Assembly: GCF_030052815.1 (NCBI RefSeq)
Contig: NC_079499.1
Coordinates: 76,461,760 to 76,525,759 of the forward strand
DNA: 64,000 nt
DNA from: Hevea brasiliensis
Lineage: Eukaryota > Streptophyta > Magnoliopsida > Malpighiales > Euphorbiaceae
Reading direction: 5' to 3'
Shown here one piece after another: positions 566 to 61,443 of the stretch; the first letter of the stretch is position 1, and every line of letters starts with the position of its first letter. The notes beneath the pieces were generated by a model. That model had not been told where the DNA came from. It saw nothing but the letters and a program-made list of their open reading frames with translations, and did not search any database. The position numbers and the translations under genes are program-made.

Positions 566-2669
566 TGAAGGAACGGAAGCATGAAAAACACAAGTTTACA
601 CCATTGAATTCAAAAATTTTCACCTAAGGTCACATGCATCATACAAGATTTATTTTTATCTATTTGATTTCAATGATAAACAAATATTAAAACTCTTTTA
701 ATATGTTTTTGGATCTGTATTTTCCATTTAAGATTTTAAAATTAATCAGATTATTTTTAGAACCCTAGATTAAATCAAGAACGATTATGCTAACCTCTTG
801 ATGCACTGCAGCGTGTCTGCGCTTTTGAGATTCATCTTCAGGACACCAGATGCTGTCTCTCTAGTTTTTCCACACCAAGAATACCTATGGCAGCCCTTGA
901 ACAGCTTCTAAAGCTTTTTCTATTAATTAGAATTCAAGTTCTGCCTTTTAAGAGACTAGAGATGTAAACAGGACACTATAAACAATTTATAGTGTTCTTA
1001 ATTCAAGAGATTGATGGCTAATCTCTTTGAATTGTTGAGAGATGAAGAAGAATAGATGAAAAGCCTCAAAGTGGCGTGACAAAGGAGAGGAGTGGCTGCT
1101 GGTTATTTTTTCTTTTCATAACCACACTTAAATAGCTAGGTTAACACATCAAACCCTTGCCACATGTCACCCTTTGATTAGCTCTAGGTTTAAGTGACCA
1201 AATCACATTGTGCCAAGTATCAAACCTATATTTAATCTTGATTTTAATCATCTTACATGATTAAAAACCATTTGGCAAGCTTATGTGTAATCCCATTTGT
1301 CACCATCTCATGGTGCCACGTGTCACACTGTGAAATAACCAAAATGCCCCTGTGTCTTAATTTTGAGTTCTTAACCCAAAATAATTATTTTTCTTCTTCT
1401 AATTAATTTATATCAAATATAAATTATTTAATTAATCTCTATTAATTAATTTCTCATTAATTAAATTCATATTTAAACACTTTAAATATAAATTTAATTT
1501 ATATTACACATCCAATAATCTAGATTTGGTTTCAAGTAATGCTAGGGACTTTGCAACTTAATTACAAACCAAACCTATTTAATTAATCAATTAAACTCTT
1601 TAGTTAATTAATTAAATCATATTTAAATAGGTGATAACTTGTGTATGTGTGTGACTTACTAGGCTCATCACTAATTGGCAATGAGAAATGATATCAACTC
1701 TCAATATCATCAGAACTCTTTCTTACCATAAATGATTTCTCTAAATCATTTTATGAACCTCATAGACCATGGTTAACACCTAGCATAGCATGCCATGGCC
1801 ACCCAATTAGTAATAAGGTTTACCTTAAATGAACCTATAATCATATGTTACCATGCACTAGAATCTCTCTGTTACAAAATCCCAACTCAAGCTGGAGTCA
1901 TGGTTCATGTCAAACTCCATTTGCTATGAATATTATGTTCTCTTTTAATTCTAGTTCTTGATTAAAAGATTTTCTCATCAGAAACTCTTTTCTGAATAAA
2001 TCTATCTGTCCTGGCCAGGAACTTGAAACATCAAGAACAATTAAATAAACGTAGGATTTTATCTCTATTTACTTAGAGGAACAGATTCCATCTTGATCAA
2101 CACCTACCTCCATATATAACTAGTAGGAGCCAACACATGCCCATATACCCATACATAGTACAAGTATGAAAGCAGTATCAAACTCAAACTACATATATAC
2201 ACGATAACTGTTCTATCTCAGGTCTAAAGACTATATGCACTGATATGATTTATGACAAAACATTGACAAGAGTAAAGTCCATGTGCTTGTCATAAGTGTC
2301 ACTGCTTCGCCCTACTTATAATTTACAAGTGCCTATCATGTTTGTTATATAGCATAAGACTCACCATTCCATCTTATTTATATCTCATATAAATAACTTG
2401 GGAACAAACATGAATAAATCTTTCTGGATAAGTCATGTCCTTATTATGAAGTATCCTGGATTGTGAACCTATTTATGATACTTTGTGCTAGAAATATTAT
2501 CACTCATATTCTTAACAACTTAAGAATAATATTTTTAACAAAATATCAATGGACATTTTCTATTACACATAAATATATTATGTAAACGGAAAAGTGGAAA
2601 TGCCTTTTATTAATAAAAATATGTACAAGATACAAACTAAATGATATGCTCTAGGGCATACTATTAACA
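566..2669 (-). repeat. C1 3' LTR
   Basis: 2104 bp, closely matching 8028-10134. In element orientation it starts TGTTAATAGTATGCCC and ends CCGTTCCTTCA. It is bordered on the inside by the purine-rich tract (reverse of ATCTCCCACTAGCAC) and on the outside by CTTAA. Its U3 carries the same GACAnnTGGC motif cluster and AT-rich palindromic TTAATTAA blocks as the other family LTRs. Confidence 0.93.
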
Positions 2670-2683
2670 ATCTCCCACTAGCA

Positions 2684-5422
2684 CTAGAGCCATTCATTAT
2701 AATACCTTAGACCCATCTTCTCAAGATGTCAGTCTAACTGAGCTTGTGACAAATGCTTAGCGAATGGATCAGCTGGTTTTTCAGCTGATGTTATTTTTCT
2801 GCATGGCTACATCGCCTCGCCCAACTATTTCTCTGATAATGTGGTAGCGCCTTTCTATGTGTTTGGATTTATGGTGAGACCTTGGTTCCTTAGCCTATAT
2901 GACTGCTCCATTATTGTCACAGTGTAGTGGAACTGCTGCCTCAATGGAAGGAACTACTGTAAGTTCTGTCACAAACTTTTTTTATCCAAACAGCTTTTTA
3001 TCCATGCAAATATTCTGCGTAGTGGAATATTCTGCAGTAGTGGAATCGTGCTCTGTTTGGAACTCTTCCAACTGACTGCACCTCCATTACAAATGAACAC
3101 ATATCCAGAGGTAGACTTTCTATCATCGATATCTGATTGGAAATCAGAATCAGTATAACCATCCAATTGCAAGTCTCCACCTCCATAAATCAAGAATAAA
3201 TCCTTAGTTCTTCTCAAGTACTTAAGGATATTCTTGTGACTATCGATGTTCCAAACACGGATTGGATTGATACCTGCTAGTCAAACTAACAGCATATGCG
3301 ATATCCGGCCTAGTACACAACATTGCATACATTAAACTTCTAATAACTAAAGCATATGGAATCCTGGCCATCTTATCTCTTTCTTCAGGTGTCTTTGGAG
3401 ACATCTCTTTAGAAAGGTGGATACCATGTCTCACTGGTAACAATCCTCTCTTGGAATCAAGCATGTTAAACCTCTTTAACACCTTTTCCAAGTATAGACT
3501 TTGGGATAAACCAATTATTCTTTTCGCTCTATCTCTATAGATGCGAATCCCAAGAATATAGGTTGCCTCCCCTAAGTCTTTCATGGAGAATGTATTTGAC
3601 AACCATACCTTTATAGTCGTCAACATACCTGTGTCATTACCCATCAACAGTATGTCATCCACATATAAGATAAGGAAAGTGATAGCACTGTCACTAACCT
3701 TCTTATATACACATGGCTCATCCTCATTTTTGATAAAACCAATGGATTTAATGGCTTCATCAAAATGGATGTTCCAACTCCTCGAAGCTTATTTCAACCC
3801 ATAAATGGATCGCTTTAGCTTGCATACCTTGGAACCATCTTGGGACTCAAAACCCCTAGGTTGTTCCATGAAAATGTTTTCTTCAATGTATCCATTGAGA
3901 AAAGCTGTTTTGACATCCATCTGCCAAATCTCATAATCATAGTATGCAGCTATTGCTAATAAAATTCTAATTGATTTAAGCATGGCAACAGGCGAGAAAG
4001 TCTCCTCATAGTCAATTCCTTGCCTTTGGCGAAACCCTTTCGCTACTAGCCTTGCCTTATAGGTCTCTACCTTTCCATCAAAACGAATTTTCTTCTTGAA
4101 AACCCATTTGTTCCCTATAGGTACAATACCTTCAGGTGGGTCAACAAGATCCCAAACTTGATTCTTATACATGGAATCAATCTCTAATTTCATAGCATCA
4201 ATCCATTTTGAAGAGTCTATATCTGATATGGCTTCTTCATAAGTAAGTGGATCATCTCCATGATCTACTTCTTCATGAGTAGACAACTCTTGTTCTTCTT
4301 CATGAAGAAAACCATATCTCACTGGTGGGTGAGATACCCTGGTTGTTCTACGAGGAACAGCTGTAGATGTTTCATCAACGGGTATAGGTTGACTAGATGG
4401 ATCTATATCCATCTGATCTGTTGGTTGGTCAGAATTCTCCAATTCTAACTCTATTTGCCTTCCTTTGCCTCCTTCTTGAACAAACTGTTGTTCAAGAAAT
4501 GTGGCATCTCTACTTATCACAAACCTTTGTGAAGTAGGCAAATAAAATAATATCCAAAACTATCTTTTGGATATCCAACAAATCGACCTTTTTCTGATCT
4601 GGTCTCCAATTTATCAGTGTTCAGCTTTTTGATATAAGCTGGACAACCCCAAATCTTAACATGCTTAAGACTTGGTTTTCTTCCATGCCATATCTTTAAG
4701 GTGTGGAAGAAACTGATTTTGATGGAATCCTATTCAGAATATACAAAGCTGATTCTAATGCAAATTCCCAAAAGAAGATTGGCATATCAGTATAGCTCAT
4801 CATACTACGTACCATATCCAATAGGGTACGATTTCTCCTTTCAGATACACCATTCAGTCCCGATTCGAGGAGTCAGCTAAGAAACAATGCCATGCTCTCT
4901 CAAGTATTCATGAAATTCAATACTCAAATATTCACCTCCACGATCTGATCGAAGAGCTTTAATACTCTTTCCTGTTTGATTTTCTACTTCATATTTAAAT
5001 TCTTTGAGCTTTTCAAAAGATTTATGTTTGTATTTCATCAAATACAAATACCCAAACCTTGATTTATCATCAGTAAAGGTAATAAAATAATGAAAACCCC
5101 CTCTAGCCATTTCTTTAAATGGACCACATACATCACTATGTATTAGCTCCAAAATATTTTCAGCTCTTAGCCCTTGTCCAACAAAGGGTGATCTAGTCAT
5201 TTTGTCTTGAAGGCAAGATTCACAAGTTGGAGTAGGCTTAGAGCCCAATGAGGATAGAATCCCCATTTTCTCCAGTTTTGCAATCCTATCTTCTGCAACA
5301 TGACATAACCTTAAGTGCCAAATATATTTTGAACTTGAGTTGGTTTTCACCATGGCATTGCATTCTTTTAGATTGCTATACTCTGGCCAGTGGAAACACT
5401 TTCTTACTGGCAATGGAAACAC
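2684..5422 (-). pseudogene. C1 pol remnant: integrase, RT, RNase H (Ty1/copia)
   Basis: Copia pol would cut, copy and integrate the element's DNA in virus-like particles. Visible in order on the minus strand: the GAG-pre-integrase/HHCC zone (HLRLCH ... CESC) and integrase core (HSDVCGPF ... SDRGGEY) at 5422-4877; the GKGRFVGYPK-type region around 4560-4600 (frame broken); RT (KARLVAKGF, DVKTAFLNG, YVDD near 3650) at 4541-3240; RNase H (DRKSTSGYVF) at 3217-2969, ending near 2684. Protease is absent. There is an in-frame TAA at 3789-3791 after YGLK, and a frameshift near 4870. RNase H after about 3060 is scrambled relative to C4. Not functional as read, though some breaks sit at the CAG/CTG-type artefact sites described in the findings. 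Confidence 0.9.
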
Positions 5423-5480
5423 TTTCCTACTGGCAGTGGAAACACTTTCCTACTGGCAGTGGAAACACTTTCCTTTGCCT
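5385..5480 (-). repeat. 23-bp tandem repeat, four copies, in the gag zinc-knuckle region
   Basis: The core TGGAAACACTTTC recurs at 5391, 5414, 5437 and 5460, an exact 23-bp spacing. The unit is the reverse complement of the sequence coding for the start of the gag CCHC knuckle (KCFHCQ). C2, C3 and C4-type copies hold it once. Twenty-three is not a multiple of three, so each added copy shifts the frame. The repeat abuts the point where the protease-coding segment is missing. Confidence 0.9.
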
Positions 5481-6237
5481 ATGTCAGCTTTGGTCTTCCC
5501 TTTCTGTTTAGCTATTTTCTTGGAAGGACCAAGAATCTGAAGTTTCTTTTTCTTATTGCCCTTCTTCTTGTTGGACTTTCCAGCAAAAGAAGATGCAATT
5601 AAAGCTACCTCTTTTCCTTTATTGCCTGGCATATTCTTTCGGGCAATAACTAGCATGTTGGGTAAACCAGCTAAGGTGCATTCCGGTTTAGTCATATGGA
5701 AATTTGTCACAAAATTCCCAAAAGACTCAGGAAGGGACTGAAGGATCAAATCCGTCTATAGTTGGAAATCCATGTTGAAGTCAAGATGTTCCAACTGCTC
5801 AATCAGCCGAATCATCTTGTGGACATGATCCCCAACATTCTGTCCCTCAGACATCCTCATACGGAATAGGCTCTAGATATCTCATACCTAGCATTCCTGC
5901 TGTGCTCACCATACAACTCTTGTAGGTGAAGGAGGATCTCACTCGCACTCTGCATGTTCTCATGTTGCTTCTGTAACTCATTACTCATGGAAGCAAGCAT
6001 GTAACACTTAGCTCTCATATTATGCTCCTTCCACTTGTCCAAAGTTTCATGTTCCTCTTGAGTGGCCTCTGGAGGTAAGGGACCAGGAACATTTGAATCT
6101 AGAACATATCCTATATGTTCAAGGTTTAGGACAAGTTTCAAATTTCTTAGCCAATCAGACAGATTAGGTCCTGTCAACCTATTGTGATCAAGTATGCTTG
6201 CAAGGATATTGGATGGTGGTGGTTGTTTTGTGCTCAT
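5450..6237 (-). pseudogene. gag: C1 gag remnant (Ty1/copia capsid/nucleocapsid)
   Basis: Gag forms the particle that packages element RNA. The start ATG at 6237 matches C3 (MSTKQPPPSNILASI). The frame is open for 126 codons to about 5860 and is then lost where C3 has ACAGCTATTCC and C1 has a shorter AGCCTATTCC form. It resumes in another frame (MILQSLPESFGNFVTNF ... basic KKKGNKKKKLQ tract ... GKGKCFHCQ) to 5450. The CCHC knuckle is cut after FHC and runs into the 23-bp repeats. As read it cannot make full Gag. The 126-codon break coincides with a CAG site and could be a sequence error. Confidence 0.88.
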
Positions 6238-8027
6238 TTTTATTAGAAAATTAATTGTAGAAAATAACCAGATTAATTAGTAAATGTATCATGTAATTAA
6301 CCAAAATGATTATGGTCTTTTAATCAAATTGGTCCTCCCACTAACTTAGCGAATCCTACACTTTCAAAGTAGAAAACGGAAATTCTAGTTGGATGGATTT
6401 CTAGTGGGTGATTGAATTCTTATAATTCTATTGATCATCATCAGGTACATCCATTATTGGAATTACAATAAACTATAAGTGAGCAACTCCTTGCCCATCA
6501 CATCTCATGTGAGGTTCAATCTATTACCTAGCCCCTAATGCTCAAAATCTCAGGTACATCCATTATTGACTTATCTTGCATTAGTTAAGTTGATCCCATT
6601 GAGCCAGTAATTATGCAAATAATTTTAATGTCCTCAGGTACATCCAATATTGGCCACTAAACCATTTACATATGTACAACATCTCATGCTTAACAATTAT
6701 TCTTAAGAAAATCTCTTAAATTAATTGCATCTTATGCAACTTTTTAAAATTTCTGAAAATAATTGCCCCAATAGAGGGCCTATGTTATAATTACTTTAAT
6801 TATAGCATTTCCAACTTAATCGTTTGTTTGGAAGATTTTATGGTCATTCTAATTACTATTAAGGTCTCACTTTGCACATTATCCATTTAGCATGCATATA
6901 TCATATAATTGCATACATTCCCATACATCTCATGCATTCATGGATAAGCAGTAAATATGGTATGATCATGGACTTTCTAAGGGAATCAATTCTGAGCCAC
7001 CAAGAATTGAATCAGGGCATTCCTAGGTGCATTTCATTCATTCATTCATTTTACAAGAGTTGCTGAAGGAGTACATTATCAACACTTGATCTTGAATTCT
7101 TCCCACTGGTCCCACCAATGCTCTTGACCTCCTTGAACTTCTTGCAATCCAATATTACATAGTAATCCTTGGCATACCAAGGCGAATTTACAAGAACATA
7201 AATAAATAAAATTAAAACCCAAAAATTATTACAAACTTAATAATAATGCCCAAAATAAATTAAAATAAATTAATTAATTTACAATCCCAAAGAAACATAA
7301 AAGAAATAAATCTAATCACATTGGTCTTTTATAGTCCATGATCATCCATCATGCATATCACTATTTAATAATTAAATAAAACATGCAAACTTAAATTAAA
7401 TTGAATATCTCAAATTCAACTTAAAAATCCAGATTTGAATATGATTCAAATAAATTTAAAAATTCAAATTTGAATATCATTCAAACAAATTTAAAAATTC
7501 ATATTTGAATCATATTCAAACAACTTTAAAAATTCAGATTTGAATCATATTCAAACATTTTTTAAAAAATCAGATTTGAATCACATTCAAACATTTTTTA
7601 AAAAATCAGATCTGAATTTTATTCAATCAATTTTAAAAAATCAGATTTAAATATGATTCAAACAACTTTAAAAATTCAGATTTGAACCACATTCAAACAA
7701 TTTTTAAAATTCAGATTTGAATCACATTCAAACAATTTTTTAAAATTCTGATTTGAATCATAATTTAATTGTGTGATTAAAATTCTAATTAAATAATTTA
7801 ATTAGACATAGGATGAGCTTTTAGATCATACAACAATTGTAAATTAAAAAGCAAACCTTGCGCCACCTTGAAGAACCATTGTTGCCGCCACCAAAGGTGG
7901 CTTCACCATGTGTGCCGCCACACATCCATTGCAACCAGCAATGGATCAATCATCTCATGATCAATTCACACAATTAAATCATATAATCAACAATCCAAAT
8001 GGCAAATATAGTGGCTCTGATACCAAT
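6238..8027 (-). other. C1 5' leader (non-coding), with hairpin-repeat block and triple motif
   Basis: About 1.8 kb between the LTR and gag with no coding signal. Minus-strand features shared with C2 and C3 are a block of imperfect 35-bp repeats at about 7420-7770 (TTTGAATnnnATTCAAA hairpins) and three copies of GGATGTACCTGAG (reverse complement near 6441, 6550 and 6633). The leader presumably carries packaging and dimerisation signals, which is inference only. Confidence 0.8.
8014..8025 (-). other. C1 primer binding site (initiator tRNA-Met type)
   Basis: On the minus strand TGGTATCAGAGC lies two bases inside the end of the 5' LTR. This is the usual plant LTR-retrotransposon site complementary to the 3' end of initiator methionine tRNA, where minus-strand DNA synthesis starts. 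Confidence 0.9.
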
Positions 8028-10134
8028 TGAAGGAACGGAAGCGTGAAAAACACAAGTTTAGACCATTGAATTCAAAAATTTTCACCTAGGGTCACATGCA
8101 TCATGCAAGATTTATTTTTATCTATTTGATTTCAATGATAAACAACATATTAAAACTCTTTTAATATGTTTTTAGATCTATATTTGCCATTTAAGATTTT
8201 AAAATTAATCAGATTAATTTTAAAACCCTAGATTAAATCAAGAACGATTGCACTAACCTCTTGATGCACTGCAGCGTGTTTGCGCCTTTGAGATTCGTCT
8301 TCAGGACACCAGATGCTGTCCCTCTAGTTTGTCCACACTAGGAACACCTATGGCAGCCCTTGAAAAGCTTCTAAAGCTTTTTCTATTAATTAGAAATTCA
8401 AGTTCTGCCTTTTAAGAGATTAGAGATGTAAACAGGACACTAGAAACAATTTCTAGTGTTCTTAATTCAAGAGATTGATGGCTAATCTCTTTGAATTGAT
8501 GAGAGATGAAGAAGAATAGATGAAAAGCCTCAAAGTGGCATGACAAAGGAGAGGAGTGGCTGCTGGTTATTTTTTCTTTTCATAACCACACTTAAATAGC
8601 TAGGTTAACACATTAAACCCTTGCCACATGTCACCCTTTGATTAGCTCTAGATTTAAGTGACCCAATCACATTGTGCCAAGTATCGAACCTATATTTAAT
8701 TTGATTTTAATTATCTTACATGATTAAAAAACATTTGGCAAGCTTATGTGTAATCCCATGTGTCACCATCTCATGGTGCCACGTGTCACATTGTGAAATG
8801 ACCAAAATGCCTCTGTGTCTTAATTTTGAGTTCTTAACCCAAAATAATTATTTTTCTTCTTCTAATTAATTTATATCAAATATAAATTAATTAATTAATC
8901 TCTATTAATTAATTTCTCATTAATTAAATTCATATTTAAACACTTTAAATATAAATTTAATTTACAATACACATCAAATAATCTAGATTTGGTTTCAAGT
9001 CATGCTAGGGACTTTGCAATTTAATTGCAAACCAAACCTATTTAATTTATCAATTAAACTATTTAATTAATTAATTAAATCATATTTAAATAGGTGATAA
9101 CTTGTGTATGTGTGTGACTTACTAAGCTCATCACTAATTAGCAATGAGACATGATATCAACTCTTAATATCATCAGAACTCTTTCTTACCATAAATGATT
9201 TCTCTAAATCATTTTATGAACCTCATAGACCATGGTTAACACCTAGCATAGCATGCCATGGCCACCCAATTAGTAATAAGGTTTACCTTAAATGAACCTA
9301 TAATCATATGTTACCATGCACTAGAATCTCTCTATTACAAAATCCCAACTCAAGCTGGAGTCATGGTTTATGTCAAACTCCATTTGCTATGAATATTATG
9401 TTCTCTTTTAATTCTAGTTCTTGATTAAAAGATTTTCTCATCAGAAACTCTTTTCTGAATAAATCTATCTGTCCTGGCCAGGAACTTGAAACATCAAGAA
9501 CAATTAAATGAACATAGGATTTTATCTCTATTTACTTAGAGGAACAGATTCCATCTTGATCAACACCTACCTCCATATATAACTAGTAGAAGCCAACACA
9601 TGCCCATATACCCATACATAGTACAAGTATGAAAGCAGTATCAAACTCAAACTACATATATACAAGATAACTATGCTATCTCAGGTCTAAAGACTATATG
9701 CACTGATATGATTTATGACAAAACATTGACAAGAGTAAACTCCATGTAATTGTCATAAGTGTCACTGGTTCGGCCTACTTATCATTTATAAGTGCCTATC
9801 ATGTTTGTTATATAGCATGAGACTCACCATTCCATCTTATTTATACCTCATATAAATAACTTGGGAACAAACATGAATACAATCTTTCTGGATAAGTCAT
9901 GTCCTTATTATGAAGTGTCCTCGATTGTGAACCTATTTATGATACTTTGTGCTAGAAATATTGTCACTCATATTCTTAACAACTTAAGAATAATATTTCT
10001 AAACAAAATATCAATGGACCTTTTCTATTACACATAAATATATTATGTAAACGGAAAAGTGGAAATGCCTTTTATTAATAAAAATATGTACAAGATACAT
10101 ACTAAATGATATATTCTAGGGCATACTACTAACA
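8028..10134 (-). repeat. C1 5' LTR
   Basis: 2107 bp in reverse orientation, matching 566-2669 with scattered substitutions. The ends are TG...CA in element orientation. The adjacent TSD CTTAA lies at 10135-10139. A TATA-like element (reverse of CTATTTAAG) lies at about 8590-8600 in the U3. The GACAnnTGGC motifs are upstream of it. Confidence 0.93.
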
Positions 10135-22846: not shown

Positions 22847-22945
22847 AGTAAATGCGAGGATTTTAGATCTCTTGAACAAATAAAACAAGGAGATTTCCTC
22901 CGGTTAGTGCATATTTATAATGTAATGTACTGTATGTATCAAACA

Positions 22946-25050
22946 TGTTAGTAATATGCCCTAGAGCATATCATTTAGTATGTATCTTGTACATAATTTT
23001 ATTAATAAAAGGCATTTCCACTTTTCCGTTTACATAATATATTTATGTGTAATAGAAAAGGTCCATTGATATTTTGTTAGAAATATTATTCTTAAGTTGT
23101 TAAGAATATGAGTGACAATATTTCTAGTACAAAGTATCATAAATAGGTTCACAATCGAGGATACTTCATAATAAGGACATGACTTATCCAGAAAGATTGT
23201 ATTCATATTTGTTCCCAAGTTATTTATATGAGATATAAATAAGATGGAATGGTGAGTCTCATGTCATATAACAAATATGATAGGCACTTATAAATGATAA
23301 GTAGGCCGAACCAGTGACACTTATGACAAGCACATGGAGTTTACTCTTGTCAATGTTTTGTCATAAATCATATCAGTGCATATAATCTTTAGACCTGAGA
23401 TAGCACGGTTATCTTGTATATAGGTAGTTTGAGTTTGATACTGCTTTCATACTTGTACTATGTATGGGTATATGGGCATGTGTTGGCTCCTGCTAGTTAT
23501 ATATGGAGGTAGGTGTTGATCAAGATGGAATCTGTTCCTCTAAGTAAATAGAGATAAAATCTATGTTCATTTAATTGTTCTTGATGTTTCAAGTTCCTGG
23601 CCAGGACAGATAGATTTATTCAGAAAAGAGTTTCTGATGAGAAAAATCTTTTAATCAAGAACTGGAATTAAAAGAGAACATAATATTCATAGCAAATGGA
23701 GTTTGACATAAACCATGACTCCAGCTTGAGTTGGGATTTTGTAACAGAGAGATTCTAGTGCATGGTAACATATGATTATAGGTTCATTTAAGGTAAATCT
23801 TATTACTAATTGGGTGGCCATGGCATGCTATGCTATGTGTTAACCATGGTCTATGAGGTTCATAAAATGATTTAAAGAAATCATTTATGGTAAGAAAGAG
23901 TTTTGATGATATTAAGAGTTGATATCATGTCTCATTGCCAATTAGTGATGAGCCTAGTAAGTCACACACATACACAAGTTATCACCTATTTAAATATGAT
24001 TTAATTAATTAATTAAAGAGTTTAATTAATTAATTAAATAGATTTGGTTTGCAATTAAATTGCAAAGTCCCTAGCATGACTTGAAACCAAATCTAGATTA
24101 TTGGATGTGTAGTATAAATTAAATTTATATTTAAAGTGTTTAAATATGAATTTAATTGATGATAAATTAATTAATAGAGATTAATTAATTAATTTATATT
24201 TGATATAAATTAATTAGAAGAAGAAAATAATTATTTTGGGTTAAGAACTCAAAATTAAGACACAGGGGCATTTTGGTCATTTCACAGTGTGACACGTGGC
24301 ACCATGAGATGGTGACACATGGCATAACACATAAGCTTGCCAAATGTTTTTTAATCTTGTAAGATGATTAAAATCAAGATTAAATATAGGTTTGACACTT
24401 GGCACCATGTGATTGGGTCACTTAAACCTAGAGCTAATCAAAAGGTGACATGTGGCTAGGGTTTAATGTGTTAACCTAGCTATTTAAGTGTGGTTATGAA
24501 AAGAAAACATAACCAGCAGCCTCTCCTCTCATATGTCACGCCACTTTGAGCCTCTCCAGCTATTTCTCTTCATCTCTCATCAATTCAAAGAGATTAGCCA
24601 TCAATCTCTTGAATTAAGAACACTAGAAATTGTTTCTAGTGTCCTGTTTACATCTTTAATCTCTTAAAAGGCAGAACTTGATTTTCTAATTAATAGAAAA
24701 AGCTTTAGAAGCCATTCAAGGGCTGCCATAGGTGTTCTTGGTGTGGACAAGCTAGAGGGACAACATCTAGTGTCCTAAAGACGAATCTCAAAGGCGCAGA
24801 TACGCTGCAGCACATCAAGAGGTTAGTGTAATCGTTCTTGATTTAATCTAGGGTTCTAAAATTAATCTGATTAATTTAAAATCTTAAATGGCAAATACAG
24901 ATCCAAAAACATATTAAAAGAGTTTTAATATGTTGTTTATCATTGAAATCAAATAGATAAAAATAAATCTTGCATGGTGCATGTGACCCTAGGTGAAAAT
25001 TTTTTAATTCAATGGTATAAACTTGTGTTACTCACACTTCCGTTCCTTCA
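22946..25050 (+). repeat. C3 5' LTR
   Basis: 2105 bp, TGTTAGTAATATGCCC ... CCGTTCCTTCA. The U3 holds AT-rich palindromes (TTAATTAATTAATTAA near 24000-24040 and 24170-24200), the GACAnnTGGC cluster and a TATA-like box. The U5 holds the ATTAATCTGATTAAT region close to the end. Confidence 0.95.
24291..24488 (+). promoter_or_regulatory. C3 U3: four GACAnnTGGC motifs upstream of a TATA-like box
   Basis: GACACGTGGC (24291), GACACATGGC (24313), GACACTTGGC (24393) and GACATGTGGC (24447), all in the same orientation, followed by CTATTTAAG at 24480-24488. C2 and C4 have CTATATAAG at the TATA position, supporting it as the core promoter. ACACGTGGC is the canonical plant ABRE/G-box form bound by bZIP factors. 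Use as an enhancer here is inferred. Confidence 0.5.
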
Positions 25051-25052
25051 AT

Positions 25053-25064
25053 TGGTATCAGAGC
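25053..25064 (+). other. C3 primer binding site
   Basis: TGGTATCAGAGC two bases after the 5' LTR end, complementary to initiator tRNA-Met. Confidence 0.93.
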
Positions 25065-26834
25065 CACTATATTTGCCATTTAGATTGTTGATTATATGAT
25101 TTAATTGTGTGATTTGATCATAAGATGATTGATTCATTGCTGGTTGGATTAAGAGGTGTGGCGTCACACATGGTCAAGCCACCAATGGTGGCGGCAACAA
25201 TGGTTCCATGTGTGATTCAAGGTTTGGCTTTTAATTCTGCAATTGTTGTATGATCTAAGGCCTATTCTTTGACTAATTAAAGTGTTTAATTAGTTGTTTT
25301 AATCACACAATTAAATTATGATTCAAATCAGAATTTTAAAAAAATGTTTGAATGTGATTCAAATCTGAATTTGAAAAGTTGTTTGAATGTGATTCAAATC
25401 TGAATTTTTAAAGTTGTTTGAATCATATTTAAATCTGATTTTTTAAAATTGATTCAATAAAATTCAGATCTGATTTTTTAAAAAATATTTGAATGTGATT
25501 CAAATCTAATTTTTTAAAAAATATTTGAATGTGATTCAAATCTGAATTTTTGAAGTTGTTTGAATGTGATTCAAATCTGAATTTTTAAATTTGTTTGAAT
25601 GAGATTCAAATCTGAATTTTTAAATTTATTTGAATCATATTCAAATCTGGATTTTTAAGTTGAATATGAGATATTCAATTTAATATAAGTATGTATGTTT
25701 TATTTAATTGTTAAATAGTGATATGCATGATAGATGATCATGGACTATAAAAGACCAATGTGATTGGATTTATTTCTTTTATGTTTCTTTGGGATTGTAA
25801 ATTAATTTATTTTAATTTATTTTGGGCATGTATTATTAAGTTTGTAATATTTTTGGGTTGTAATTTCATTTATTTAAGTTCTTGTAAATTCGCCTTGGTA
25901 TGCCAAGGATTGCTATGTAATATTGGATTGCAAGAAGTTCAAGGAGGTCAAGAGCATTGGTGGGACCAGTGGGAGGAATTCAATATCAAGTGTTGATTAT
26001 GTACTCCTTCAGCAACTCTTGTAAAATGAATGAATGAAATGCACCTAGGAATGCCCTGATTCAATTCTTGGTGGCTCAGAATTGAATCCCTTAGAAAGTC
26101 CATGATCATACCATATTTACTGCTTATCCATGAATGCATGAGATGTATGGGAATGTATGCAATTATATGATATATGCATGCTAAATGGATAATGTGCAAA
26201 GTGAGACCTTAATAGTAATTAGGATGGCTATAAAATCTTCCAAACAAATGATTAAGTTGGAAATGCTATAATTAAAGTAATTATAACATAAGCCCTCCAT
26301 TGGAGCAATTATTTTAAGAAATTTTAAATAGTTGCATGAGATGCAATTAATTTAAGAGATTTTCTTAAGAAATAATTGTTAAGCATGAGATGTTGTAAAT
26401 ATGTAAATGGTTTGGTGGCCAATATTGGATGTACCTGAGGACATTAAAATTATTTGCATAATTACTGGCTCAATGGGATCAACTTAACTAATGCAAGATA
26501 AGTCAATAATGGATGTACCTGAGATTTTGAGCATTAGGGGCTAGGTAAAGGATTGAACCTCACATGAGATGTGATGGGCAATGAGTTGCTCACTTATAGT
26601 TTATTGTAATTCCAATAATGGATGTACCTGAGGATGATCAATAGAATTATAAGAATTCAATCACCCACTAGAAATCCATCCAACTAGGATTTCCGTTTTC
26701 TACTTTAGAAGTGTAGGATTCGCTAAGTTATTGGGAGGACCAATTTGATTAAAAGACCATAATCATTTTGGTTAATTACATGATACATTTACTAATTAAT
26801 CTGGTTATTTTCTGCAGTTAATTTTCTGATAAAA
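25065..26834 (+). other. C3 leader with 35-bp hairpin repeats and three GGATGTACCTGAG motifs
   Basis: About 1.77 kb with no coding signal. At about 25319-25640 imperfect 35-bp repeats contain TTTGAATGTGATTCAAA (7-bp stem, 3-base loop), exact at 25347, 25382, 25488, 25523 and 25559. GGATGTACCTGAG occurs at 26427, 26511 and 26620, each preceded by CAATA(T/A)T. Conserved in C1 and C2. Confidence 0.85.
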
Positions 26835-27780
26835 ATGAGCACAAAACAACCACCACCATCCAATATCCTTGCAAGCATACTTGATCACAACAGGTTGACA
26901 GGACCTAATCTGTCTAATTGGCTAAGAAATTTGAAACTTGTCCTGAACCTTGAACATATAGGATATGTTCTAGATTCAAATGTTCCTGGTCCCTTACCTC
27001 CAGAGGCCACTCAAGAGGAACATGAAACTTTGGACAAGTGGAAGGAGCATAATATGAGAGCTAAGTGTTACATGCTTGCTTCCATGAGTAATGAGTTACA
27101 GAAGCAACATGAGAACATGCAGAGTGCGAGTGAGATCCTCCTTCACCTACAAGAGTTGTATGGTGAGCACAGCAGGAATGCTAGGTATGAGATATCTAGA
27201 CAGCTATTCCGTATGAGGATGTATGAGGGACAGAATGTTGGGGATCATGTCAACAAGATGATTCGGCTGATTGAGCAGTTGGAACATCTTGACTTCAACA
27301 TGGATTTCCAACTACAAACAGATTTGATCCTTCAATCCCTTCCTGAGTCTTTTGGGAATTTTGTGACAAATTTCCATATGACTAAACAGGAATGCACCTT
27401 AGCTGAATTACTCAACATGCTGGTTATTGCCCAAAAGAATATGCCAGGCAATAAAGGAAAAGAGGTAGCTTTGGTTGCATATTCTTCTGCTGGAAAGTCC
27501 AACAAGAAGAAGGGCAATAAGAAAAAGAAACCTCAGATTCCTGGTCCTTCCAAGAAAATAGCTAAACAGAAAAAGAAGACTAAAGCTGATGGAGGCAAAG
27601 GAAAGTGTTTCCACTGCCAAAAGGATGGGCACTGGAAAAGGAACTGCCCAGAGTATCTTGCTTCTCTGAAGGACAAGAAGGATACACCTTCGGAAGGTAT
27701 GTCCATATCTTGTTATTTAGATTCTGATGATACTCATAGTTCATCTGACTTGGGTTTTAGATCTGGTGCGGTTCTCACAT
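26835..27780 (+). CDS. gag: C3 gag (Ty1/copia capsid-nucleocapsid)
   Basis: Gag assembles cytoplasmic virus-like particles that enclose element RNA and reverse transcriptase. The frame from ATG 26835 is open for 322 codons. Residues 1-230 are the helical UBN2/Retrotran_gag-type capsid (LTGPNLSNWLRNLKL, LDKWKEHNMRAKCYM, LQELYGEHSRNARYEIS, LPESFGNFVTNFH). About 220-255 is a lysine-rich tract (NKKKGNKKKK, KQKKKTK). About 258-271 is a complete CCHC knuckle, CFHCQKDGHWKRNC. The start is supported by C1 and C2 at the same place. The last 20 or so residues are out of frame: two bases are lost at 27761-27775 relative to C2, so protease is not read in phase. That loss is at a CCAG site and may be an artefact. 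Confidence 0.9.
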
Positions 27781-30758
27781 TTCTAATGATATGCAGGAAC
27801 TAGCAAGCGATGGCGACTTGCGTTCTCAAGATATTAGAGTCCAGATTGGCAATGGCTCAACTATTGAAGCTTTAGCCATAGGATCTAAATCTTTTTACAT
27901 GTTTGGACATGTTTTGTGTTTGGATAATATTTTATATGTACCTGATGCTTTTAAGAACATCATTTCTATATCTAGTTTGACTAGAAATGGCTATGAATTT
28001 CAGTTCACTGATGATGTTTGCAATATTTATTTTGGAAATAAATATGTTGGTTCGGGTTATATGAATGCAAGTGATCTAAAAGAATACAATGCCATGGTGA
28101 AAACCAACTCAAGTTCAAAATATATTTGGCACTTAAGGTTATGTCATGTTGCAGAAGATAGGATTGCAAAATTGGAGAAAATGGGGATTCTATCCTCATT
28201 GGGCTCTGAGCCTACTCCAACTTGTGAATCTTGCCTTCAAGGCAAAATGACTAGATCACCCTTTGTTGGACAAGGGCTAAGAGCTGAAAATATTTTGGAG
28301 CTAATACATAGTGATGTATGTGGTCCATTTAAAGAAATGGCTAGAGGGGGCTTTCATTATTTTATTACCTTTACTGATGATAAATCAAGGTTTGGGTATT
28401 TGTATTTGATGAAATACAAACATGAATCTTTTGAAAAGTTCAAAGAATTTAAATCTGAAGTAGAAAATCAAACAGGAAAGAGTATTAAAGCTCTTCGATC
28501 AGATCGTGGAGGTGAATATTTGAGTCGAATTTGATGAATACTTGAGAGAGCAAGGCATTGTTTCTCGGTGACTCCTCGGGAATGCCACGGTGAATGGTGT
28601 ATCTGAAAGGAGAAATCGTACCCTATTGGATATGGTACGAAGTATGATGAGCTATACTGATATGCCAATCTCCTTTTGGGGATTTGCATTAGAATCAGCT
28701 TTGTATATTCTGAATAGGATTCCATCAAAATCAGTTTCTTCCACACCTTATGAGATATGGCATGGAAGAAAACCAAGTCTTAAGCATATTAAGATTTGGG
28801 ATTGTCCAGCTTATATCAAAAAGCTGAACACTGATAAATTGGAGACCAGATCAGAAAAAGGTCGATTTGTTGGATATCCAAAAGATAGTTTTGGATATTA
28901 TTTTTATTTGCCTACATCACAAAAGGTTGTGATAAGTAGAGATGCCACATTTCTTGAACAATAGTTTGTTCAAGAAGGAGGCAAAGGAAGGCAAATAGAG
29001 TTAGAATTGGAGAATTCTGACCAACCAACAGATCAGATGGATATAGATCCATCTAGTCAACCTATACCCATTGATGAAACATCTACATCTGTTCCTCGTA
29101 GAACAACCAGGGTATCTCACCCACCAGTGAGATATGGTTTTCTTCATGAAGAAGAACAAGAGTTGTCTACTCATGAAGAAGTAGATCATGGAGATGATCC
29201 ACTTACCTATGAAGAAGCTATATCAGATATAGACTCTTCAAAATGGATTGATGCTATGAAATCCGAGATTGATTCCATGTATAAGAATCAAGTTTAGGAT
29301 CTTGTTGACCCACCTGAAGGTATTGTACCTATAGGGAACAAATGGGTTTTCAAGAAGAAAATTGGTTCTAATGGAAAGGTAGAGACCTATAAGGCAAGGC
29401 TAGTAGCGAAAGGGTTTCGCCAAAGGCAAGGAATAGACTATGAGGAGACTTTCTCGCCTGTTGCCATGCTTAAATCAATTAGGATTTTATTAGCAATAGC
29501 TGCATACTATGAGTATGAGATTTGGCAGATGGATGTCAAAACAGCTTTTCTCAATGGATACATTGAAGAAAACATTTTCATGGAACAACCTAAGGGATTT
29601 GAATCCCAAGATGGTTCCAAGGTATGCAAGCTAAAGCGATCCATTTATGGGTTGAAACAAGCTTCGAGGAGTTGGAACATCCATTTTGATGAAGCCATTA
29701 AATCCGTTGGTTTTATAAAAAATGAGGATGAGCCATGTGTATATAAGAAGGTTAGTGACAGTGCTATCACTTTCCTTGTCTTATATGTGGATGACATACT
29801 GTTGATAGGTAATGACACAGGTATGTTGACGACTATAAAGGTATGGTTGTCAAATAAATTCTCCATGAAAGACTTAGGGGAGGCAACCTATATTCTTGGG
29901 ATTCGCATCTATAGAGATAGAGCGAAAAGAATAATAGGTTTATCCCAAAGTCTATACTTGGAAAAGGTGTTAAAGAGGTTTAACATGCTTGATTCCAAGA
30001 GAGGATTGTTACCAGTGAGACATGGTATCCACCTTTCTAAAGAGATGTCTCCAAAGACACCTGAAGAAAGAGATAAGATGGCCAGGATTCCATATGCTTT
30101 GACTATTGGAAGTTTAATGTATGCAATGTTGTGTACTAGACCGGATATCGCATATGCTGTTAGTTTGACTAGCAGGTATCAATCCAATCCAGGTTTGGAA
30201 CATTTGGATAGTCATCAAGAATATCCTTAAGTACTTGAGAAGAACTAAGGATTTATTCTTGATTTATGGAGGTGGAGACTTGCAATTGGATGGTTATCAC
30301 GATTACGATTTCCAATCGGATATCGATGATAGAAAGTCTACCTCTGGATATGTGTTCATTTGTAATGGAGGTGCGATCGGTTGGAAGAGTTCCAAGCGAG
30401 CACATTGCAGATTCCACTCGAGGTTGAGTATATTCTCGCATCGAATCTTTGTTTGGATAAATAAGTTCGTGATGAGAACTTACGGTAGTTCCTTCCATTG
30501 AGTCGATAGTTCCACTACCTTTGTGACAATAATGGAGCGATCATACTGAGCTAAGGAACCAAGGTCTCACGAGAAATCCAAACACATAGAAAGCGCTACC
30601 ACATTATCAGAGAAATAGTTGGGCGAGGCGATGTAGCCATGCAGAAAATAGCATCAGCTGAAAATCCAGCTGATCCATTCACTAAGCCTATGTCACAGAC
30701 TCAGTTAGACCGACATCTTGAGAAGATAGGTCTAAGATATTGTAATGAATGGCTCTAG
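27781..30758 (+). pseudogene. C3 pol: protease, integrase, RT, RNase H with several breaks
   Basis: The protease body (LDNILYVPDAFKN) runs from 27791 but DTG upstream is destroyed. Integrase has HLRLCH, CESCLQGK, HSDVCGPF and SDRGGEY; the frame breaks at 28525 (AGTCGAATTTG versus AGTACAGAATTTG in C4). It resumes at about 28590 (NGVSERRNRTLL, KGRFVGYPKDS) to a TAG at 28963 and a second TAG at 29296 (TGG in C1). RT is open 29466-30230: DVKTAFLNGYI, YGLKQASRSWN (Gln intact, unlike C1/C4), YVDDILLIGND. RNase H (DRKSTSGYVF) is shifted several times after 30200 and ends at TAG 30756. Many breaks fall at CAG/CTG-to-CG sites, so the true copy may be less damaged. Confidence 0.88.
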
Positions 30759-30772
30759 TGCTAGTGGGAGAT
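30759..30772 (+). other. C3 polypurine tract
   Basis: GCTAGTGGGAGAT lies immediately before the 3' LTR. It is conserved in C1 and C4 and is the expected plus-strand primer site. Confidence 0.75.
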
Positions 30773-32871
30773 TGTTAGTAATATGCCCTAGAGCATATCA
30801 TTTAGTATGTATCTTGTACATAATTTTATTAATAAAAGGCATTTCCACTTTTCCGTTTACATAATATATTTATGTGTAATAGAAAAGGTCCATTGATATT
30901 TTGTTAGAAATATTATTCTTAAGTTGTTAAGAATATGAGTGACAATATTTCTAGTACAAAGTATCATAAATAGGTTCACAATCAAGGATACTTCATAATA
31001 AGGACATGACTTATCCAGAAAGATTGTATTCATATTTGTTCCCAAGTTATTTATATGAGATATAAATAAGATGGAATGGTGAGTCTCATGCCATATAACA
31101 AATATGATAGGCACTTATAAATGATAAGTAGGCCGAACGGTGACACTTATGACAAGCACATGGAGTTTACTCTTGTCAATGTTTTGTCATAAATCATATC
31201 AGTGCATATAATCTTTAGACCTGAGATAGCACAGTTATCTTGTATATAGGTAGTTTGAGTTTGATACTGCTTTCATACTTGTACTATGTATGGGTATATG
31301 GGCATGTGTTGGCTCCTGCTAGTTATATATGGAGGTAGGTGTTGATCAAGATGGAATCTGTTCCTCTAAGTAAATAGAGATAAAATCCTATGTTCATTTA
31401 ATTGTTCTTGATGTTTCAAGTTCTGGCCAGACAGATAGATTTATTCGAAAGAGTTTCGATGAGAAAAATCTTTTAATCAAGAACTGGAATTAAAAGAGAA
31501 CATAATATTCATAGCAAATGGAGTTTGATATAAACCATGACTCGGCTTGAGTTGGGATTTTGTATGAGAGAGATTCTAGTGCATGGTAACATATGATTAT
31601 AGGTTCATTTAAGGTAAATCTTATTACTAATTGGGTGGCCATGGCATGCTATGCTAGGTGTTAACCATGGTCTATGAGGTTCATAAAATGATTTAGAGAA
31701 ATCATTTATGGTAAGAAAGAGTTTTGATGATATTAAGAGTTGATATCATGTCTCATTGCCAATTAGTGATGAGCCTAGTAAGTCACACACATACACAAGT
31801 TATCACCTATTTAAATATGATTTAATTAATTAATTAAAGAGTTTAATTGATTAATTAAATAGATTTGGTTTGCAATTAAATTGCAAAGTCCCTAGCATGA
31901 CTTGAAACCAAATCTAGATTATTGGATGTGTAGTATAAATTAAATTTATATTTAAAGTGTTTAAATATGAATTTAATTGATGAGAAATTAATTAATAGAG
32001 ATTAATTAATTAATTTATATTTGATATAAATTAATTAGAAGAAGAAAATAATTATTTTGGGTTAAGAACTCAAAATTAAGACACGGGGGCATTTTGGTCA
32101 TTTCACAGTGTGACACGTGGCACCATGAGATGGTGACACATGGCATAACACATAAGCTTGCCAAATGTTTTTTAATCATGTAAGATGATTAAAATCAAGA
32201 TTAAATATAGGTTTGACACTTGGCACAATGTGATTGGGTCACTTAAACCTAGAGCTAATCAAAAGGTGACATGTGGCTAGGGTTTAATGTGTTAACCTAG
32301 CTATTTAAGTGTGGTTATGAAAAGAAAACATAACCAGCAGCCTCTCCTCTCATATGTCACGCCACTTTGAGCCTCTCCAGCTATTTCTCTTCATCTCTCA
32401 TCAATTCAAAGAGATTAGCCATCAATCTCTTGAATTAAGAACACTAAAAATTGTTTCTAGTGTCCTGTTTACATCTTTAATCTCTTAAAAGGCAGAACTT
32501 GATTTTCTAATTAATAGAAAAAGCTTTAGAAGCCATTCAAGGGCTGCCATAGGTGTTCTTGGTGTGGACAAGCTAGAGGGACAACATCTGGTGTCCTAAA
32601 GACGAATCTCAAAGGCGCAGATACGCTGCAGCACATCAAGAGGTTAGTGTAATCGTTCTTGATTTAATCTAGGGTTCTAAAATTAATCTGATTAATTTAA
32701 AATCTTAAATGGCAAATACAGATCCAAAAACATATTAAAAGAGTTTTAATATGTTGTTTATCATTGAAATCAAATAGATAAAAATAAATCTTGCACGGTG
32801 CATGTGACCCTAGGTGAAAATTTTTGAATTCAATGGTATAAACTTGTGTTTTTCATGCTTCTGTTCCTTCA
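30773..32871 (+). repeat. C3 3' LTR
   Basis: 2099 bp. Same as 22946-25050 except for a handful of substitutions and small losses concentrated at former CAG/CTG sites (31137-31140, 31421-31465, 31541-31575). TSD AAACA follows. Confidence 0.95.
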
Positions 32872-32876
32872 AAACA

Positions 32877-32967
32877 ATGATATTGAGCAGTTGTACTATG
32901 AAGAAAGAATATTCAAGTAAAATGTGGAAATAGAATTTAAAAACTTTGCTCTGATACCACAAAAACA
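32877..32967 (-). other. G1 leader fragment with primer binding site
   Basis: The reverse complement reads TGGTATCAGAGC at 32959-32948, 8 bases inside the LTR end, as in G2 and G3. The remainder of the leader continues at 22940 beyond C3. Confidence 0.88.
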
Positions 32968-47256: not shown

Positions 47257-48640
47257 ATGGAAGAGGGTGATCGTTCAGTCGATCAATCTATTGAGGCTGA
47301 GGTGCAAGGGGATGCCCCATGCCTACATAATGTCAGTGGTTCAGTAGCACCAGCCCCTGCAGTACCGCAGTTCTCTGCTCAGTTCGCTCAGCAGACGGCT
47401 GCAATGTTCCAACAAATGGATGGTAATGTGCCTACTCAAGTCCCAATACAGACACCGGTGGTACAACCACGATCTTACGCTAGACAGTATGATAAATTGA
47501 TGAAGTATGGGGCTACAGAGTTCAAGGGGACAGTAGATCCTCTAGAGGCAGAACAATGGTTAGAGAGGATGGATAGGGTATTCAAGAAACTGCATTGCAC
47601 AGAGGAGCTTAGATTTGAGTACTCATTATCTTTGCTACAGGGGGATGCTTATGACTGGTGGAAAAACATCCCTACGATCGATAGAACTGCAGTGCTAACA
47701 TGGAATGACTTCCTCAGGAATTCAGGCAAAAATATGTCCCCGATGCTTATGTAGACCGTAAGTCGCAAGAATTCCTAAGTCCAAACAGTGGATCGCTGGT
47801 CGAGTATGAAAGGGAATTCTCCCGCCTAAGCCATTATGCAAGAAGTCTACTTTCTACCAGAGGAGAGATGTAAGAGGTTTGAAACCGGCTTAAAGCCTAG
47901 TATCGATTACAAGTGGTCGGATTCAAACATAACAACTTCTCCGAACTTATTTCTCAAGCACTAGAACTAGAAAGAATTGAATCAAGCGGCTCTTGAGAAA
48001 AAGAAATCGAGAGAAGACGTAAAAGAGGGAAAGTCACAGACGAGTTCTAGTGGTCCCACCGAAAGAGGAAAACTTTGGGGATACACCAGAGATAGTCAGA
48101 CGTCCGGTAGAGATAGATCTTTGGGACAGAAACCCCCTCGATCCGATCAGCAAACTCAACAGAAACCCAGGAATGCGCTGTCAGATCGACTTTGTGAAAC
48201 TTGTGGTAAACCACATAGTGGTGTATGCTATAGAGCCGTAGGAGCATGTTTTAATTGTGGAGAGATGGCCATTTTGCTAGGGATTGTGTAAATCCGTGTC
48301 GCTCGGATCATTTACTACACCAAAGGGATCAACCCAAGTTTCTACCCCAAAGAGTTCACCATCGCTTAGTAGAGGCAAAGGTAGAGGTAGGGTAGTACAC
48401 CTAGAAGTCGACTCATCGTGAATCACCAAAACAGGGTGATGCTTCAACGAGTATACGCTATACTGACGTAAAAGAGACTGAGACTTTTGACATCATTCTT
48501 GGTACTTTCTCAATTAGCAACCGAGATATATATATGTATTGTTTGACCTGAATTTTCATATTTTTACATTAGTGTTAGAACTATATGTTCTGTTGTTATT
48601 CGTTACGAGGAATAAATTTTGACGCATTAGTGATTAGCCC
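47257..48640 (+). pseudogene. gag: G3 gag and protease remnant
   Basis: ATG 47257 (MEEGDRSVDQS) runs in frame through the alanine/proline segment into Retrotrans_gag (GDAYDWWKN) and is lost at about 47715 (AGGAATTC versus AGGGAATTC in G2). Further shifts follow. 47977-48291 keeps the hydrophilic linker, CETCGKPHSGVC and CFNCGEM, but the knuckle then shifts and ends. Protease remains only as fragments (48480-48560). Base losses are concentrated where G2 has CAG or CTG, so an intact gag here cannot be excluded. Confidence 0.82.
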
Positions 48641-52500: not shown

Positions 52501-53369
52501 AATTGTGTTATTATGTATTGTGAGATTGTGAAATTGATTTAAACTCTTATTGACATATCTGTCTATTGAATTCAACCATGATCGACTTATTGAAAATTAT
52601 TGTGATATTAACAAATGGAGTTTAAATTCTTGTTGACATTTATTGTCTTGAATTTAACTATGGTTTTAAGTATCCACTATTGATATGATTTATGAATTGT
52701 GATTTAAAATTTGTATTTGGTAAATGTTGTGCACCATTGAGACATTGTCTCGTGATAGCTTTATTCTTTGTCGCAGTAGAGAGACAGACAGGCGTGAGGC
52801 TAGGTCGCTAGTATCGCCATGAGAGATTTTTGGGTATAGTGAGTATACCACATGTGGCATTTTGTCTTGTAATGTATATTCACTGTATGTATATTTTGTT
52901 CTTGGTTTTGAGCGATTGTAAATTTAAGTTGTACAGTAAAGTTGTAAAATAATTATGAGTTATTTGGCTTGTAAAAATTGTGTTATATCTTTGTATCTTA
53001 GTCTTTGAAAATCACTGTGGATTTGACTTGAGAAATGTGTTGTGTTGATAAAAATGTTGGAGTTGAGATTTGAAAATATATTGAAGTGCTTTTTACAGGT
53101 TTTCTGAAGAACTGTTTTGTCCAAAATACAAATGGCACCTTGCCAAAATTTTTACAGATATTCCAAATAAATCAAATGAGTTAGTTGTTTCACTTCAGTT
53201 CACCAAAGTCTTTCACACCTGTAAATAGTGCTCACCACTGTAAAAGAAGTAAGAAAAGTTTTTAAAATCCCTTGTAGTGTATTTAATGGATTATCAGTAG
53301 ACGGAGTTGGTAATTCATTAGGTATACTACGGGATCATGTTATGCCTTACAGAGGGGTAGGGTGTGACA
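49523..53369 (+). repeat. G3 3' LTR
   Basis: 3847 bp, partner of 43202-47066. Shortened by many one- to three-base losses relative to it (for example 49551-49575, 52791-52815). Ends GGGTAGGGTGTGACA. Confidence 0.93.
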
Positions 53370-59320: not shown

Positions 59321-61429
59321 TGAAGGAACAGAAGCGTGAAAAATAGAAGTTTATACCATTGAATTCAAAAATTTTCACCTAGGGTCACATGCATCATACA
59401 AGATTTACTTTTATCTATTTGATTTCAATAATAAACAACATATTAAAACTCTTTTAAAATGTTTTTGGATCTGTATTTGCCATTTAAGATTTTAAAATTA
59501 ATCAGATTAATTTTAAAACCCTATATTAAATCAAGAACAAACACACTAACCTCTTAATGCACTGCAGTGTATTTGAGCCTTTGAGATTCATTTTTAGGAC
59601 ATCTAATGTTGTCCCTCTAGTTTGTGCACACCAAGAACACCTATGGCAGCCCTTGAATAGCTTCTAAAGCTTTTTCTATTAATTAGAAAATAAAGTTCTG
59701 ACTTTTAAAAGATTAGAGATGTAAACAGGACACTATAAATAATTTTTGGTGTTCTTAATTCAAGAGATTGTTTTTCTAACCTCTTGGATTGATGAGAGAA
59801 GAAGATGAAGAGAGAATGGGAGGCTTCAATGTGGCAGCACAAAGAGAGAGGCTGTTGCTAGTGTTTTATTTTTTCTCATAACAACACTTATATAGCTAGG
59901 TTAACACATTAAACCCTTACCACATGTCACCCTTTGATCAGCTCTAGGTTTAAGTAACCCAATCACATTGTGCCAAGTGTCAAACCTATATTTAATCTTA
60001 ATTTTAATCATCTTACATGATAAAAGACATTTGGCAAACTTATGTATAATGCCATGTGTCACCATCTCATGGTGCTACGTGTCACACTGTGAAATGACCA
60101 AAATGCCCCTGTGACTTAATTTTGAGTTCTTAATCCAAAATAATTATTTTTCTTCTTCTAATTAATTTATATCAAATATAAATTAATTAATTAATCTCTA
60201 TTAATTGATTTCTCATTAATTAAATTCATATTTAAACACTTTAAATATAAATTTATCTTATACTATACATCTAATAATCTAGATTTGGTATCAAGTCATG
60301 TTAGGGACTTTGCAATCTAATTGCAAACCAAAGCTATTTAATTAATCAATTAAACTCTTTAATTAATTAATTAAATCACATTTAATTAGGTGATAACTTA
60401 TGTATGTGTGTGACTTACTAGGCTCATCACTAATTGGCAACGAGATATGATATCAATTCTTAATATCATCAGAACTCTTTCTTACCATAATGATTTCTCT
60501 AAATCATTTTATGCACCTCATAGACCATGGTTAACACCTAGCATAGCATGCCATGGTCACCCAATTAGTAATAAGGTTTACCTTAAATGAACCTATAATC
60601 ATATGTTACCATGCACTGGAATCTCTCTGTTACAAAATCCCAAGTCAAGCTGGAGTCATGGTTTATGTCAAACTCCATTTGCTATGAATATTATGTTCTC
60701 TTTTAATTCCAGTTCTTGATTAAAAAGATTTTCTCATCAGAAATTCTTTTCTAAATAAATCTATCTGTCCTGGCCAGGAACTTGAAATATCAAGAACAAT
60801 TAAATGAACATAGGATTTTATCTCTATTTACTTAGAGGAACAGATTCCATCTTGATCAACACCTACCTCCATATATAACTAGCAGAAGCCAACACATGCC
60901 CATATACCCATACATAGTACAAGTATGAAAGTTGTATCAAACTCAAACTACCTATATACAAGATAACTGTGCTATCTCTGGTCTAAAGATTATATGCACT
61001 GATATGATTTATGACAAAACATTGACTAGAGTAAACTCCATGTGTTTGTCATAAGTGTCACTGGTTCAGCCTACTTATCATGTATAAGTGCCTATCATGT
61101 TTGTCATATGACATAAGACTCACCATTCCATCTTATTAATTTCTCATATAAATAACTTGAGAACAAACATGAATATAATCTTTATGGATAAGTCATGTCC
61201 TTATTATGAAGTATCCTCGATTGTGAACCTATTTATAATACTTTGTACTATAAATACTATCACTCATATTCTTAACGACTTAATAATAGAATTTCTAACA
61301 AAATATGAATAGACCTTTTCCATTACACATAAATATCTTATGTAAATGGAAAAGTGGAAATGCCTTTTATTAATAAAAATATGTACAAGATACATACTAA
61401 ATGATATGCTCTAGAGCATACTACTAATA
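59321..61429 (-). repeat. C4 3' LTR
   Basis: 2109 bp. TATA box CTATATAAG on the minus strand at 59887-59895. U3 motifs as in C3 with substitutions (the ACACGTGGC site reads ACACGTAGC). Confidence 0.92.
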
Positions 61430-61443
61430 ATCTCCCACTAGCA

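Follow-up and report, generated by a model that had tools for sequence, protein, structure and literature searches.

CAG/CTG-to-CG rewriting in Copia retrotransposon copies of a plant assembly as a probable base-calling error at methylated sites

The window analysed here, i.e., the whole stretch of 64,000 nucleotides at C7:76461760-76525759 of a plant assembly (1,876,525,085 bases, 755 contigs), contains a retrotransposon, C3, that reads CG at places where its relatives read CAG or CTG, and the question is whether these letters record mutations of the element or a fault of the assembly. A first-pass annotation had described the change as a systematic replacement in C3 and had taken a base-calling or polishing error as its simplest explanation. 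Our results support this error reading, by the excess of the changes in the CAG/CTG context and by the lack of CG forms among the losses of a related copy (C4). The description itself was confirmed, with two corrections: the rewriting is patchy rather than systematic, and it extends beyond C3.

C3 has the LTR pair (about 22946-25051 and 30773-32871) and the target-site duplication (AAACA, 5 bases, at 22941-22945 and 32872-32876) of a Ty1/Copia LTR retrotransposon, and its Pfam matches follow the Copia-type order, with gag, then the integrase part and then the reverse transcriptase RVT_2. The match to rve (integrase core) lies below the Pfam cut-off, and gag_pre-integrs and SH3_retrovirus lie above theirs; the RNase H pieces matched no Pfam family and take their name from homologues. 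An older repeat hosts the insertion, with 21425-22950 and 32872-33838 both matching repeats at 39-48 kb. Just inside the 5′ LTR, positions 25275-25693 hold direct repeats with a 35-base spacing and counterparts in C1 and C2, and a stretch of ~450 bases in C3 (27626-28073) is mostly absent from C1 (5374-5447). C4 was chosen for comparison because CG forms are absent among its CAG/CTG losses. The features are given in Table 1.

Table 1. Retrotransposon copies, rewritten patches of C3 and rewritten stretches of a second repeat family in the window
Feature	Coordinates	Strand	Remark
C3, Ty1/Copia-type LTR retrotransposon	22946..32871	+	LTRs 98.4% identical
C1, C3 family	566..10134	-	altered at the counterparts of patches 2 and 3
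C4, C3 family, cut by window end	59321..64000	-	comparison copy
Patch 1, rewritten CAG/CTG sites in C3	27746..27816	+	frame change; seen against C2 only
Patch 2, integrase part of C3	28522..28592	+	frame change
Patch 3, reverse transcriptase end and RNase H part of C3	30201..30610	+	two frame changes
Patch 4, C3 3′ LTR only	31137..31566	+	CAG/CTG intact in 5′ LTR
Rewriting in unrelated repeat family	47700..48152	+	new CG at 14/29 CAG/CTG sites
Further CAG/CTG rewrites, second family	52515..52950	+	

When the C3 LTRs were compared with each other, C3 with C4 and with C2, and six LTR copies side by side, all ten rewrites listed by the annotation were recovered, at the same positions or a few bases away. 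Between 28219 and 30772, C3 lost 10 of the 39 CAG/CTG sites common to C1 and C4; six of these ten losses are CG forms, and all six are confined to 30298-30540. The CpG observed/expected ratio reaches 0.98 in patch 3, whereas seven further stretches of the element range from 0.12 to 0.41. At the places of patches 2 and 3, C1 is altered too, in a different manner from C3. The two LTRs of C3 differ in 24 blocks, five of which lie on CAG/CTG within 31137-31566 of the 3′ LTR, three of them creating CG; for the CAG-to-CGG change near 32085, a plain transition suffices. The frameshifts that had been attributed to the rewriting exist, since the open segments of C3 switch frame at about 27761-27800, 28531/28572, 30169-30227 and 30498/30555; C4, as far as it lies in the window, has four open segments of at least 60 amino acids, and these all keep one frame.

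Ordinary decay of methylated cytosine, which had been thought unable to yield CG with a lost base, is ruled out as the source of the CG forms by the losses of C4: between 28219 and 30772 this copy lost 13 CAG/CTG sites, ten by a single C-to-T or G-to-A change and three by other single changes, with no CG form among them. Such decay, evident in C4, C2 and C1, also strikes these CAG/CTG sites, but it proceeds by one transition to TAG, CAA, CTA or TTG, with no base loss and no new CG. Among the 714 changed CAG/CTG cells of the multi-copy site table described below, the commonest forms, all given in the CAG orientation, are CGA (87) and CAA (86), followed by CA (70), CGG (67), CG (64) and TAG (50); TAG and CAA being common, ordinary decay runs alongside the rewriting. 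Note that plain differences between CCGG and CCAG/CTGG, which are frequent, were set aside as non-diagnostic because CpG decay in the reverse direction can give them.

The direction of the change follows from the RNase H part. In nine homologues (eight named from plants), this part has residues with little or no variation, and C4 keeps them throughout the CAG/CTG-rich tract altered in C3; thus, CAG/CTG was the original state. The homologues of the C4 RNase H (61507-61899, minus strand) include proteins named from Escherichia coli, Modestobacter lapidis and Bifidobacterium longum, the E. coli one being 89% identical and located on a 605-bp contig, and these bacterial-named matches to a plant Copia RNase H suggest that plant DNA has entered bacterial assemblies. 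The name ‘secreted RxLR effector protein 161-like’, carried by several of the plant Copia RNase H proteins, is apparently misleading.

Whether the changes prefer CAG/CTG was examined in two sets of copies, and a strong excess was found in both. The annotation had named a context table lacking such an excess as a refutation of its reading, and the outcome was strongly the opposite. The first set comprised C1, C3 and 29 copies that resemble the reverse transcriptase stretch 29300-29990 at 98-99% identity, taken from 2397 candidates of which the best 40 were scored, with C4 as the reference; its counts omit the selecting stretch (29280 on in that piece) and any non-CWG triplet lying 6 nt or less from a CWG. 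Triplets beside CWG sites had been raised in an earlier copy set, and the other triplets were therefore restricted, here and in the two further tables below, to those at least 7 nt away. A new CG occurred in 398 of 2059 CAG/CTG cells, against 983 of 53,745 cells of these other triplets and 4 of 1500 at GAC/AGC; a complex change occurred in 580/2059, 1270/53,745 and 12/1500 cells, respectively. Against the triplets at least 7 nt away, CAG/CTG had an odds ratio of 12.9 for new CG, and the ratio for complex change was 16.2. C3 gained a CG at 16 of its 67 CAG/CTG sites and stands near the middle of the 31 copies, the 30 others having 2 to 28 among 54-68 sites each (4/68 in C1). CCG showed C-to-T change as well as complex change above background (27/186), and no new CG was found there. 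The second set, 29 copies picked by 30000-30770 and tested outside that stretch, gave a new CG in 207 of 1237 CAG/CTG cells versus 583 of 64,013 others, with odds ratios of 21.9 for new CG and 12.3 for complex change; in its reverse transcriptase part alone, the counts were 14/232 versus 136/17,429.

Since cells share ancestry and are not independent, an additional table counted sites and copies, after dropping, besides what the first table omits, reference-private sites and those covered by under 15 copies or matching the reference at less than 20% identity. A new CG was present in 10% or more of the copies at 28 of 56 CAG/CTG sites, 0 of 41 GAC/AGC sites and 21 of 1533 others, and the CAG/CTG excess of new CG appeared in all 31 copies (reference-private sites dropped). 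The errors are thus concentrated in one methylation-type context, CWG as against other triplets. In a table of unpolarised one-base deletions, CAG/CTG was no more than modestly raised (7 versus 1.97 expected), and ATC (8 versus 3.60) and GTA (7 versus 2.63) were raised as well; the case therefore rests on the multi-copy tables. Early copy sets picked with the altered C3 stretch overstate the frequency of CG forms; in copies so picked, ACG exceeded CAG/CTG for complex change (27/31 cells, at one site). Some CAG/CTG sites within patches are almost always intact, e.g., the one at 30408 in patch 3 (28 of 31 copies).

The copies also differ among themselves: over 45-56 CWG sites, 9 of the 31 copies have 1-6 new CGs and the other 22 have 8-23, a contrast between few and many that was noted at L090, L095, L103, L104, L107 and others and that either polishing or methylation may account for. 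In the per-site comparison of copies, 4 of 32 rows were excluded, having no usable LTR piece. The error rate did not correlate with the divergence between copies (rho 0.06), so the idea that patches survived where near-identical copies blocked short-read polishing is unsupported.

The annotation had confined the pattern to C3; the pattern itself was borne out, and this scope proved too narrow, the signature occurring in unrelated families and on many chromosomes. Indeed, an event of C3 alone is excluded by the same rewriting in C1, in C3-family copies on other chromosomes and in an unrelated repeat family. The comparison copy of this second family, near 22.4 kb, has a new CG at none of its 25 CAG/CTG sites, against 14/29 at 47700..48152; the rewriting thus recurs in unrelated sequences sharing the CWG context. 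One second-family pair without a third copy to give direction shows new CGs at 9/65 and 7/58 CAG/CTG sites, and another such pair shows a small excess (1/61 and 4/57 CWG sites). In addition, 39 LTR copies elsewhere in the genome were picked by the intact 5′ LTR, a choice that understates altered forms; among them, C3-like changes of CAG/CTG sites number six in L036 and two each in L039 and L040, and L032 carries a single CG form.

We conclude that the CG forms are very probably assembly errors, arising where the base-caller took methylated CAG/CTG for CG and surviving in patches after polishing, because they are concentrated at CWG, recur over many copies, chromosomes and families, take several forms at one site and destroy conserved residues. 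In plants, transposons carry methylation in the CHG context, and CAG/CTG (CWG) is its palindromic, symmetric part. A nanopore base-caller that had met 5-methylcytosine mainly before G may have written a methylated CWG as a CG form; the fault, recurring in the reads of the same site, would be kept by the consensus, and polishing would have mended most sites, the patches being what was left over. The almost always intact sites within patches, the missing correlation with divergence and the small excess in one second-family pair weigh against this reading. The available excerpt of PMC10106855 describes a wild Hevea assembly that was built with 300x PromethION (Oxford Nanopore) and 60x Illumina reads, with 18 linkage groups and an N50 of 102.0 Mb, which is presumably the assembly analysed here.

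The alternative that survives best would tie the base-calling or consensus error to the CAG/CTG motif itself, independently of methylation. Our tables reveal a sequence context and not methylation, and there is wide variation between sites of one triplet, which leaves some room for such an error; we nevertheless consider it improbable, since the affected motif is the palindromic context of CHG methylation in plants and the product is typically CG. The precedent of CCAGG/CCTGG, as given in the excerpt of PMC6591954, also depends on 5mC.

It is far less probable that the CG forms are real subfamily variants, inherited and spread by transposition or gene conversion. On a tree built from columns free of rewriting, the CG states take slightly fewer steps than shuffled labels (170 versus 184.2 for 25 sites, with 2 clearly low), as inheritance would have it, but held-out ordinary SNPs fit this tree better (157 versus 205.2; 26 tests in four splits, 10 low), and the tree being weak, these step counts only lean against inheritance. 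The forms at one site weigh more: near-identical copies there show, among others, CGA, CGG and a CG with one base missing. Although some CG forms are common to many copies (in part copies picked with the altered C3 stretch), the same rewriting in an unrelated family and the breaking of frames at sites conserved across plants also speak against inherited variants. Finally, a real mutation aimed at methylated CWG, e.g., faulty repair after excision of 5-methylcytosine on both strands, would fit the context and the base loss at part of the sites, but it is scarcely credible, as it would have altered a large fraction of the CWG sites in copies whose other columns differ by ~2% on average, would usually have to make CG and often keep the length (CGA, CGG), and we know of no mutational process that turns methylated CWG into CG forms.

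Altogether, the CAG/CTG-to-CG pattern, very probably a misreading of methylated CWG, is real in the letters and an artefact in biology, an error of a known general kind, and the apparent CG mutations in these retrotransposon copies should not be taken as biology. The errors produce false frameshifts and false CpGs, which is how patch 3 comes by its high ratio, and the five LTR difference blocks on CAG/CTG in patch 4 inflate the LTR divergence of C3. A bias is to be expected in the transposon-rich parts of this assembly for element dating, intactness calls, CpG-depletion measures and gene models, and similar nanopore plant assemblies are perhaps biased likewise; the signature is simple to screen for. 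If the error needs 5-methylcytosine, the finished assembly might even be a partial record of methylation, in which the copies with few CGs are under-methylated and not better polished. We regard this as rather unlikely; if true, the false CGs per transposon copy would report CHG methylation without reads, and the nine copies with one to six new CGs would be under-methylated relative to the 22 others.

Searches of the open-access literature, judged by title and start of abstract, gave no printed account of a CAG/CTG-to-CG signature in plant nanopore data, and the excerpts of PMC8188678 and PMC10849370 had no bearing on it. Related losses of accuracy are on record: according to the excerpts of PMC9749173 and PMC7501810, stock nanopore base-callers are less accurate on native plant DNA, and this is blamed, as here, on methylation absent from the training; unlike our case, these excerpts name no triplet context and no CG product. 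In one benchmark, ~70% of the nanopore consensus errors fell within the 5mC motifs CCAGG/CCTGG, which were missing from the base-caller training (PMC6591954, excerpt). These Dcm errors are bacterial and concern one extended motif, whereas those described here strike CAG/CTG in plant transposons and make CG forms, probably at methylated sites. As far as the same excerpt goes, both would involve a 5mC motif outside the training, the Dcm motif holds CAG/CTG, and polishing corrects the errors only in part.
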